NCBI GenBank assembly: GCA_026388275.1
Contig: JAPLKB010000002.1
Location: forward strand, 1 to 32,877
Length of the DNA stretch: 32,877 bases
Origin: Pseudomonadota bacterium
Lineage (GTDB): Bacteria; Desulfobacterota; Syntrophorhabdia; Syntrophorhabdales; Syntrophorhabdaceae
Direction: 5' to 3'
The notes beneath the pieces were generated by a model that was not told where the DNA came from, did not search any database, and saw only the letters and a list, made by a program, of their open reading frames with translations. Shown one piece after another: positions 357 through 3,553 of this stretch. The first letter of the stretch is position 1; each line of letters begins with the position of its first letter. A program made the position numbers and the translations under genes.

Positions 357-413
357 AAGTATTTTCTGCCGATAAAATTCTAAAGTAACACCATTTTGAC
401 CTTTGGAAGGGCA

Positions 414-785
414 ATGGAAGATTTGCTGTCACAAGATGACCTCAATGAGCTTCTTGGCGGATTGCCTGAAACAACAATAGCAGTCTCGCAAAAAGAAATA
501 AAAGTAGAGGATATACTGTCACAAGATGACCTCAATGAGCTTCTTGGCGGATTGCCTGAAACAACAATAGCAACTTCTTCCAACAAAGAAACGAATGGAG
601 TGGAAGGACTGCTGTCGCAGGACGATTTAAACACACTGTTTTGCATAACCGAAAAAACAATAGCATCGTCAACAAATAAAATGGCTGTTTCTGATATGCC
701 TGCAGAAGACATAAGTTCGTGTGGAGAATCACTGTCTCAGGAGGAAATAGATGAAATGCTGCGCCAGTTTGATAGAGGTATATGA
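414..785 (+). CDS. Tandem FliM N-terminal (CheY-binding) motif protein
   Basis: This 123-residue protein consists of four spaced copies of one short motif: LLSQDDLNELL (4-14), ILSQDDLNELL (34-44), LLSQDDLNTLF (66-76) and SLSQEEIDEML (106-116). The pattern LSQ-acidic-acidic-(I/L)-(D/N)-x-L-L is the signature of the extreme N terminus of the flagellar switch protein FliM (E. coli ILSQAEIDALL), the helix that captures phosphorylated CheY. The FliM middle and C-terminal domains are absent, and the linkers are polar (T, S, N, K) and probably disordered. The ATG at 414 was chosen because it puts the first motif at residue 4 exactly as in FliM and follows GGAAGG; a TTG at 396 is the upstream alternative. 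Inferred role: a multivalent CheY~P-binding protein acting as sink, scaffold or adaptor. A FliM-like peptide used by another response regulator is also possible. Confidence 0.7.
   Translation: MEDLLSQDDLNELLGGLPETTIAVSQKEIKVEDILSQDDLNELLGGLPETTIATSSNKETNGVEGLLSQDDLNTLFCITEKTIASSTNKMAVSDMPAEDISSCGESLSQEEIDEMLRQFDRGI
426..572 (+). repeat. Exact 57-bp direct repeat, period 90 bp, inside the FliM-N motif gene
   Basis: Bases 426-482 and 516-572 are identical over 57 bp and lie in the same reading frame, 90 bp apart. Perfect identity at synonymous positions shows a recent in-frame duplication; the third and fourth motifs of the gene have diverged. Such a repeat can expand or contract by slippage or recombination, so motif number may vary between strains. 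Confidence 0.9.
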
Positions 786-1011: not shown

Positions 1012-1977
1012 TCAGAAACTATATGTGAGTCCCACAAGAAACATCATGGTATATCGGTCAAAAAATCTTATATTCGACTCTGTCTGATAACCGTTAATGC
1101 CCGCCATTATTGTATATTTCCTCCATCCGAAGGGCTCCGGGAATGTGGCCACTATGTTTGTCCCGTATGTTTTTTCATCCCTTGTTTCTGCAAATATCGG
1201 ATGCATCCTGTCAAATTTTGCCGTATTCCCGTAAAAACGTGTATTGAGATTGAAAAAGGGGGTCCTCACCTCAAACCCAAGCCCGCTGCCATAGTTGTCA
1301 TAGCTGTTGCTCCTGCCGTAAAACTGACCTCTTTCGAATGAAAATTCAGGGATAATACTGAACATTTTGTCAAAATCGTATCGATAATCAATGCCTATCT
1401 TATGCATAAACCCATCCTGTCTGAGCGTTGAATAGAGCTCCCCGATAACATCATTTTCTACTTTTGTAGCGGCAAATCTATAAGAAAGGGAAAGTTTGGT
1501 ACCCATTATTTTTGCATAAGTAATTCTGCCGCCGAAATACATAGTATTTGTTGGCGTTCTATACAATAAATAGGGATTTTGCCATTTTTTCGCCAGCAGG
1601 GAATAAAAACCGGACACATCAATAACACCCTTCGGCAAAGCTTGTTTTATTCCGATATTAATGCTTCCCTGTTCGGTAATAGTATTGAAATATAAAGTAG
1701 TACTGCCTTTTTGCCCTTCCTGATAATCCGGTATATACTTCACATCGAAATAGGGGAGTGCCAGATAGGATATATTTGTGTCCGCTTTCGAGCCAAGGCT
1801 GTCAATTCTCCTGCCGCCCTTCCCCCAGAGATTGTCTGCTCTTTGCACCGCCATTGCCCAGCTCCCGACAGTTATCACATATTTGCCTGCCTGAACATTC
1901 GGGACAGCAAAGAGAAAGGAAAAGAGCATAACACAGGAAATGATATTGCTTGTCTTCCCAGGTGTATGCCCTTTCAC
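1012..1977 (-). CDS. Outer-membrane beta-barrel protein, DUF2860-like
   Basis: The 321-residue product begins with a basic stretch and a hydrophobic core (VMLFSFLFAVPNVQA) ending in an Ala-x-Ala-like cleavage site near residue 30, so it should be exported. The mature part is built of alternating polar/aromatic strands such as KLSLSYRFAA and IGIDYRYDF, and ends in Tyr-Ser-Phe; a C-terminal aromatic residue is the usual signal for barrel assembly by the Bam machinery. The overall pattern recalls DUF2860 outer-membrane proteins, an identification made from memory. No ligand can be deduced. The annotated start is GTG without a clear ribosome site; a downstream ATG at about residue 17 would shorten the signal peptide. 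It lies 27 bp after the selenoprotein gene on the same strand and may share its promoter. Confidence 0.6.
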   Translation of the reverse strand: MKGHTPGKTSNIISCVMLFSFLFAVPNVQAGKYVITVGSWAMAVQRADNLWGKGGRRIDSLGSKADTNISYLALPYFDVKYIPDYQEGQKGSTTLYFNTITEQGSINIGIKQALPKGVIDVSGFYSLLAKKWQNPYLLYRTPTNTMYFGGRITYAKIMGTKLSLSYRFAATKVENDVIGELYSTLRQDGFMHKIGIDYRYDFDKMFSIIPEFSFERGQFYGRSNSYDNYGSGLGFEVRTPFFNLNTRFYGNTAKFDRMHPIFAETRDEKTYGTNIVATFPEPFGWRKYTIMAGINGYQTESNIRFFDRYTMMFLVGLTYSF

Positions 1978-2004
1978 CGTATTATTATTGTTACATTATC
2001 TTTA

Positions 2005-2319
2005 TCAGCAACTGCATGAACTTCCGCAGCCGTCATTTTTCGAGAGTTCTGATTTTATCATAAACCCTGCTCCCATAGTAGATTCAATGAAATCAACGTT
2101 GATGGGTTGTACTTCTTTAAACAACTCTTTTTCAATAATAAATGATATACCTCTTTCATTAAAAACTTCGTCGTTTTTATTAGGCTCATCCAGAGCCATA
2201 CCCAAAGAGGGGCCTGATCACCCACCCTCCATTTTCATAATCCTTATAGAGGTAGGACCATCTTTTCCTTCGATAAACTGTTTTATCACTTCGCCTGCCT
2301 TATCCGATACTTCAAACAT
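2005..2319 (-). CDS. HesB/IscA-like selenoprotein (in-frame UGA = Sec34)
   Basis: From the ATG at 2319, behind AAAGGAG with a 6-nt spacer, the frame reads MFEVSDKAGEVIKQFIEG and reaches a TGA at 2220-2218 (codon 34), then continues SGPSLGMALDEPN to a TAA after residue 104. The context GG-U-SGPSLGMALDE is the known signature of HesB-like selenoproteins, where Sec replaces the first conserved cysteine of the IscA/HesB fold. The protein ends in a cysteine-rich tail GCGSSCSC instead of the CGCG of classical IscA. A SECIS-like hairpin follows the UGA. Expected roles are Fe-S or metal handling, or redox chemistry in the cytoplasm; the exact function of the family is unknown. An automatic caller would report only the 66-residue fragment starting at TTG 2205. 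A true nonsense mutation is unlikely because sequence on both sides of the UGA matches the family. Confidence 0.88.
2183..2220 (-). promoter_or_regulatory. Bacterial SECIS-like element downstream of the UGA
   Basis: Twenty nucleotides after the UGA (2220-2218) the mRNA can form GGCUC (2197-2193) / GAGCC (2187-2183), a perfect 5-bp stem closing the loop UGGAU. The loop carries a G at its second position and begins 25 nt after the UGA. Both fall within the described bacterial SECIS rules (apical loop 16-37 nt from UGA, a G in the first two loop bases). This would recruit SelB and Sec-tRNA. Confidence 0.75.
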
Positions 2320-2375
2320 ATTTTACTCCTTTAACTGAATTCGTTATCGCTGCTCAAGCAATGAACGTGTAATTT

Positions 2376-2431: not shown

Positions 2432-3553
2432 ATGATAAACTATAAAGAGGATATAAAGACAAAATTTATGAAGAAGGCAATTACCACCCTTCCCCTGCAT
2501 TACGGAAAGGCCCCTCCATGGCTTTTTCAGAAAATGAAGAGGCTCTCTGCTGCTCTCATCGAGGTTATCGTTATGGAGTTCGGCGTAAAAGAACTGCTTG
2601 TCCGTATTGCCGATCCCATATGGTTTCAGGCATTGGGATGTGCTGTAGGCTTCGACTGGCACAGCAGCGGTGTTACCACAACTCTATGTGGGGCATTGAA
2701 AGAGGGGCTCCAATCTCTGTATGATGAGATGCCTATCGCCATATGCGGCGGAAAAGCAAAAAGGGCAATCCAGACTCCAGGAGACATTGAAGCATATGGT
2801 GAAAAATGGGGTGTTGACGTTGCAGATTATATTGCCTTAAGCCGCCTCTGTGCAAAGATTGATAATACTGCAGTCCAGGATGGTTATAACCTTTACCACC
2901 ATACATTTGTCTTCACAAAAGAGGGTGATTGGGCAATTATCCAGCAGGGTATGAATGAAAAACTCAAAAATGCAAGACGGTATCAATGGCTCTCAAGAGA
3001 AAGTCTTGATATAACAAACGAACCTCATACAGGTATTACATGTAATGAAAGGGGCGCAGTATTAAACCTTGTGGCTGGTGAAAGCGAAGGAGCAAGAAAG
3101 TCTGCAGTAGATTTTGCAAAGGGAGATCCTGATTCTATGATTAAAACATGGAAAGAAGTTGCTCTAGCCATGCCGAAAAGGCATTACATATCGCCTGCCG
3201 ATATAAATCAAACACGTCTTTTCAAGATGTTTAGAACGATTCATGAATCACACCCTGAGACATTCAAAGATTTAATAGGAATTCATGGTGTCGGCCCGAG
3301 AACTGTTTCAGCTCTTTCTTTAATTGCCGAACTTGTCTATGAGAAACTTCCGAGTTTTAAGGACCCTGCACGGTTCAGTTTTGCCCACGGGGGGAAAGAC
3401 GGTTACCCCTTTCCCGTTGATAAAAAGACCTATGAAAATTCCATAGAATTCCTGAAGATTTGCATCGACAAGGCAAAGGCAGGCGATAGGGATAAAATCG
3501 ATGCATTCAAAAAGCTTTCTTTATTGGCATATTTCAACAACCCCAGATATTAA
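2432..3553 (+). CDS. DUF763 family protein with C-terminal helix-hairpin-helix-like motif
   Basis: The 373-residue protein matches DUF763 (COG1415) as I recall it: an N-terminal TLPLHYGKAPPWLFQKMKRL, then ADPIWFQALGCAVGFDWHSS with GVTTTLCGALKEGL, and a C-terminal block LIGIHGVGPRTVSALSLIAE followed by DPARFSFAHGGKDGYPFPVD. GIHGVGPRT has the form of a helix-hairpin-helix, which suggests nucleic-acid binding. The family is common in archaea and thermophilic or anaerobic bacteria and has no established reaction. AGGAG seven bases before the ATG fixes the start. The gene stands alone, divergent from the selenoprotein and convergent with the efflux operon 50 bp downstream. Confidence 0.85.
   Translation: MINYKEDIKTKFMKKAITTLPLHYGKAPPWLFQKMKRLSAALIEVIVMEFGVKELLVRIADPIWFQALGCAVGFDWHSSGVTTTLCGALKEGLQSLYDEMPIAICGGKAKRAIQTPGDIEAYGEKWGVDVADYIALSRLCAKIDNTAVQDGYNLYHHTFVFTKEGDWAIIQQGMNEKLKNARRYQWLSRESLDITNEPHTGITCNERGAVLNLVAGESEGARKSAVDFAKGDPDSMIKTWKEVALAMPKRHYISPADINQTRLFKMFRTIHESHPETFKDLIGIHGVGPRTVSALSLIAELVYEKLPSFKDPARFSFAHGGKDGYPFPVDKKTYENSIEFLKICIDKAKAGDRDKIDAFKKLSLLAYFNNPRY

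Follow-up and report, generated by a model that had tools for sequence, protein, structure and literature searches.

The locus raises one question: does an in-frame UGA close to the start of a short reading frame end a gene, or is it read as selenocysteine (Sec)? It lies in a stretch of 32,877 nucleotides (hereafter the window), positions 1 to 32,877 of contig JAPLKB010000002.1 in assembly GCA_026388275.1, from a bacterium placed in the Syntrophorhabdaceae (Desulfobacterota). A first-pass annotation, made from the letters alone, had proposed a HesB-like selenoprotein at this place.

The coding frame and its surroundings

The Sec-containing HesB/IscA-like gene occupies 2005..2319 on the minus strand, a strand that the first-pass annotation did not give. 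The sense stretch runs from the ATG at 2319-2317 to the last sense codon, which ends at 2008, and is closed by a terminal UGA at 2007-2005. With the internal UGA (2218..2220, minus strand) read as U, translation of 2319-2005 yields MFEVSDKAGEVIKQFIEGKDGPTSIRIMKMEGGUSGPSLGMALDEPNKNDEVFNERGISFIIEKELFKEVQPINVDFIESTMGAGFMIKSELSKNDGCGSSCSC. The length of 104 residues, Sec at codon 34 in the context GG-U-SGPSLGMALDE and the tail GCGSSCSC are all as proposed earlier. The codons of the cysteine-rich end, CGSSCSC, lie at 2008..2028 (minus strand) and align with the C-terminal cysteines of IscA. The start was described as well placed, and a ribosome-binding site AAAGGAG is indeed found at 2326..2332 on the minus strand, 6 nt 5' of the ATG. 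The proposed promoter did not hold up: the best candidate is a weak 9/12 match at 2404-2376, and the two sites in the region, with 2.2 expected, are at chance level. Under the standard code the sole open reading frame on the coding strand of this locus starts with TTG and spans 2005-2205, which is the 66-residue stub predicted for ordinary gene calling. An antisense frame of 132 residues (1940-2338, plus strand) overlaps the gene. A standard gene caller would miss the full gene, and the present finding completes the annotation.

Both neighbours, a divergent DUF763 gene (2432-3553) and a downstream DUF2860 gene (1012-1977), are uninformative. The clusters obtained from the gene neighbourhood comparison reflect antisense frames or genus-level synteny and point to no consistent functional partner. 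Elsewhere in the window, a predicted frame at 396-785 (plus strand) contains three repeats of LLSQDDLN(E/T)L(L/F).

Conservation of the UGA and the selenocysteine machinery

Among 86 aligned homologues, codon 34 is TGA in 72 sequences, TGC in seven, TGG in five and TAC in two. A sequencing error for TGC or TGT, which the first-pass annotation had named as a possible refutation, is excluded by this recurrence. Conservation of both the UGA and the SECIS hairpin described below extends over the phylum. A homologue is present in 38 of the 39 genomes of the same family, the best match mostly having exactly one internal TGA, and the copy of the sister species, at 84% identity, likewise has TGA at this codon. 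One Sec-type copy (L019:1501-1812, minus strand) has an extra in-frame TAG at codon 14 and may be a broken gene, a sequencing error or a second recoding. Elsewhere in the phylum, in other families, genes for Sec and Cys versions lie close together (L054, L055, L056, L063, L076, L080 and L081).

The host genome (3.53 Mb in 71 contigs, 99.5% complete) encodes SelA (582.9 bits, cut-off 268), SelB (365.6 bits, cut-off 242) and SelD (369.6 bits, cut-off 125). The tRNA-Sec was detected with 72.2 bits (cut-off 47) and is also called by ARAGORN, with anticodon UCA. SelD itself has one internal TGA, in the context RGAG-U-ASK, which matches the UxxK motif of Sec-type SelD (PMC13188914). SelA, SelB, SelC and SelD had been predicted for this organism, and their absence would have been the main objection to a selenoprotein; all four were found, and the objection falls away. 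Comparison of sequences confirms the predicted gene as a genuine selenoprotein gene whose internal UGA codes for Sec, and insertion at the predicted Sec34 is near certain.

The SECIS hairpin

An apical hairpin, GGCUC-UGGAU-GAGCC, was located at 2183..2197 on the minus strand, with a 5-bp stem and a UGGAU loop that begins 25 nt after the UGA and has G as its second base; the 25-nt distance and a G in the loop are as the earlier reading of the sequence had them. It fits the description of bacterial SECIS elements, which lie directly 3' of the UGA and have a small apical loop with a G (PMC1088965). The fold energy of this single sequence is unexceptional (z -1.0 against dinucleotide shuffles), so the case for the SECIS was made comparatively, from synonymous recodings and covariation. 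All five stem pairs form in 71 of the 72 Sec genes, and the complete stem is found in none of the 14 homologues with Cys, Trp or Tyr; it arises in 4.4% of synonymous recodings. Mean fold z against such recodings is -1.64 at the SECIS and about -0.5 to 0.05 at the measurable control offsets. The three most synonymously constrained codons of the gene, Ala+8, Leu+9 and Glu+11, are within the SECIS region (CTG, for example, in 72/72). Compensatory changes were found at two pairs, U-A to C-G in nine distinct sequences and C-G to U-A at another pair in one sequence, and RNAalifold recovers the same helix. The Rfam scan of the window gave no match, which leaves the SECIS without confirmation from a library model.

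The swap from U-A to C-G comes with a change of Glu to Gly in the protein. LDGP in place of LDEP was observed at L035 to L041, L044 to L046, L083, L084 and L088, which suggests that RNA pairing is maintained there at the expense of the residue. In genes with UGA-GCC or UGA-GCT, a competing fold is possible, since the 5' arm of the SECIS stem can also pair with the bases immediately following the UGA (L052, L053, L057, L061, L062, L068 and L077).

The interval from the UGA to the apical hairpin may hold a small accessory hairpin, at 2200..2213 on the minus strand, where 2213-2210 pairs with 2203-2200 in the predicted fold of the window. The full set of four pairs is present in 45 of the 72 genes, as against 11% of synonymous recodings. 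In the alignment register tested, 84.8% of cells are formed and two pairs show changes on both sides; the score was reached by no shuffle in this alignment test, in which sequence relatedness was uncorrected. Its two wobble-wobble pairs have covariation z of 4.4 and 5.1, the highest in comparison with 165 control pairs (maximum 3.35), kinship again being uncorrected. Some families are without the hairpin, and it is missing from the RNAalifold structure. On these grounds, together with the uncorrected relatedness, we take the apparent covariation, seen in most lineages at wobble positions that are synonymous, as a lead, not a result.

Family, fold and known relatives

The 104-residue protein matches the NCBIfam model NF038090 (IscA_HesB_Se) over its whole length with 110.9 bits, above the cut-off of 85, so the proposed identity as a HesB-like selenoprotein is borne out by a curated Sec-type model. 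It has Sec at the same place as that family and a Cys-rich tail, and no material difference was seen. Of 395 genomes sampled from the phylum, 220 have a match to NF038090, which is above the cut-off in 168. The protein scores below the cut-off of TIGR01911 (41.9 vs 66.35 bits), the model used in a 2026 review (PMC13188914), and therefore belongs to the NF038090 branch rather than that of TIGR01911. It also falls below the cut-offs of the Fe-S_biosyn Pfam model (22.6 vs 26.3) and of TIGR00049 (57.5 vs 58.8), and is far from the equivalog cut-offs for IscA (40.3 of 150.6), SufA (40.5 of 136.2) and ErpA (43.9 of 117).

An AlphaFold2 model built with 46 homologues has a pLDDT of 83.5, with residues 97-104 of the tail disordered. 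Its best PDB matches by Foldseek are IscA and SufA (TM about 0.7-0.8, E about 1e-6 to 1e-7), and the closest solved structures are IscA with [2Fe-2S] (1x0g), IscA (1r94 and 1s98) and SufA (2d2a). In the profile alignment, Sec34 corresponds to the first cysteine in E. coli IscA (1s98, 1r94) and in AQ_1857 (1nwb); the tail corresponds to the C-terminal cysteines of the same three structures. The A-type fold, a residue at the first-cysteine position and C-terminal cysteines are thus common to this protein and to IscA, SufA and ErpA; it differs from them in having Sec for Cys and CGSSCSC for CGCG. The cluster ligands of E. coli IscA are given as Cys35 and Cys99/101 (PMC11327457), though Cys35 remains idle according to one structural study (PMC5471300). 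A partnership between Sec34 and the Cys-rich tail, as suggested in the first-pass annotation, would by homology fit the IscA pattern of Cys35 with Cys99/Cys101.

HesB-like selenoproteins of Syntrophus aciditrophicus, Syntrophobacter fumaroxidans and others were listed in 2006 (PMC1794560), and their motif is given as UxGP in the 2026 review (PMC13188914). The present protein resembles them in having U-S-G-P at residues 34-37, in coming from similar anaerobes and in the dominance of the Sec form. Since Sec-containing HesB-like proteins with UxGP have been on record since 2005-2006, this gene is a further and expected member of a known family, made up of small proteins related to iron-sulfur metabolism in anaerobes that use selenium.

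Paralogues and the A-type carriers of the host family

A second Sec-type copy is present in the same genome, on another contig (C18, 11374-11664, equal to L091:998-1291); its motif reads UGGP and its tail is a short GGCC. It likewise scores above the NF038090 cut-off and is an older paralogue, which the sister species has too. The scan of the genome contigs with the protein as query returned one locus only. The window gene and the C18 copy are the only matches to TIGR00049 in the genome, both below its cut-off, and among the 39 genomes of the family none has a match above it. PF01521 is above its cut-off in four of 79 genomes of the phylum, in one of them through a TGA-containing gene. These cut-offs may overlook divergent A-type carriers. 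Three NifU_N/IscU-type scaffold genes are found in the host genome. These searches make it reasonable to suppose that, in the host family, Sec-type HesB would act as the A-type carrier.

In the phylogenetic tree, the window gene and the sister-species copy group together with support of 100/93. The Trp and Tyr versions form one clade (100/100), nested with moderate support in the Sec sequences, and are without a complete SECIS stem. One base separates UGG from UGA. Trp/Tyr paralogues with a different Cys tail were observed in sister genomes (L087, L089, L090, L095, L096, L097 and L098). Since some homologues carry Trp or Tyr instead of Sec, a selenium or sulfur ligand at this residue is dispensable in the paralogues.

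Proposed function and alternative readings

Computation establishes the gene with its conserved UGA and its SECIS, the presence of the Sec machinery, and the protein's family and fold. The explanation that we favour, and hold with high confidence as a whole, is that of a HesB/IscA-family selenoprotein with an IscA/SufA-type fold, whose UGA would be decoded through the SECIS and which is likely an iron or Fe-S carrier. A ribosome would reach the UGA at codon 34, SelB with Sec-tRNA-Sec would bind the hairpin just 3' of it, and Sec would be inserted instead of termination. The product would adopt the A-type (IscA/SufA) fold, in which Sec34 takes the position of Cys35 in IscA and further cysteines sit on a mobile C-terminal tail. 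Most likely it would collect iron or an Fe-S cluster from an IscU/NifU scaffold and deliver it to target enzymes, and Sec34 and the cysteines of the tail would serve either as ligands or as a redox-active pair. Taken by itself, this carrier role is probable rather than assured. Against the explanation as a whole count the unexceptional fold energy of the single SECIS sequence, the scores below cut-off for Fe-S_biosyn and TIGR00049, and the homologues with Trp or Tyr. In addition, no conserved isc/suf link was found beside the gene in the gene neighbourhood comparison. In Methanococcus maripaludis, disruption of the gene for the HesB-like selenoprotein, a 75Se-labelled protein whose function was called unclear, reportedly left nitrogen fixation unimpaired (PMC11097638).

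The same protein might instead be a thiol/selenol oxidoreductase, built on a scaffold like that of IscA but not serving as a cluster carrier, Sec34 and a tail cysteine forming a reversible selenenylsulfide. Sec is usually catalytic, Sec and the Cys-rich tail are retained together in the Sec homologues, and most uncharacterised selenoproteins are expected to be redox proteins (PMC13188914). Against this stand a family and a fold that are those of Fe-S carriers, retained cysteine positions that are likewise the carriers', and the lack of an adjacent UxxC or CxxU motif, and we regard an oxidoreductase as possible but rather unlikely.

Readings in which the UGA is not decoded as Sec are highly improbable. 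For a pseudogene, or an error for TGC/TGT at codon 34, all that speaks is that a standard-code stop splits the two halves of the gene; TGA is held at this codon in aligned homologues from many families and in the similar sister-species copy, and is accompanied by a conserved SECIS and a complete Sec system. Ordinary termination with a separate 66-residue protein started at the internal TTG has equally little to recommend it. The frame at 2005-2205 does exist, but its TTG, at codon +5 counted from the UGA, occurs in 37 of the 72 Sec genes, the others having CTG, CTT or CTC. A codon retained in only about half of them is not a conserved start, and in-frame conservation extends to the residues 5' of the UGA.

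Returning to the carrier explanation, a joint reading may be tentatively put forward for the host family, although we consider it doubtful in its entirety. The role of A-type carrier would have passed to Sec-HesB there, with no standard Cys-type carrier remaining, Sec34 would be a direct selenolate ligand of iron or Fe-S in transit, and the SECIS would be a two-hairpin element in which the small hairpin tunes Sec insertion.

The interest of the finding is mainly in the wider family pattern rather than in the window gene. Sec-type HesB and its Trp/Tyr relatives are the sole homologues of A-type carriers found in the 39 family genomes, and through this family the role of HesB-like selenoproteins, listed as unclear, becomes testable. 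One and the same protein occurs naturally with Sec, Cys, Trp or Tyr, which offers a ready comparison for the contribution of selenium.
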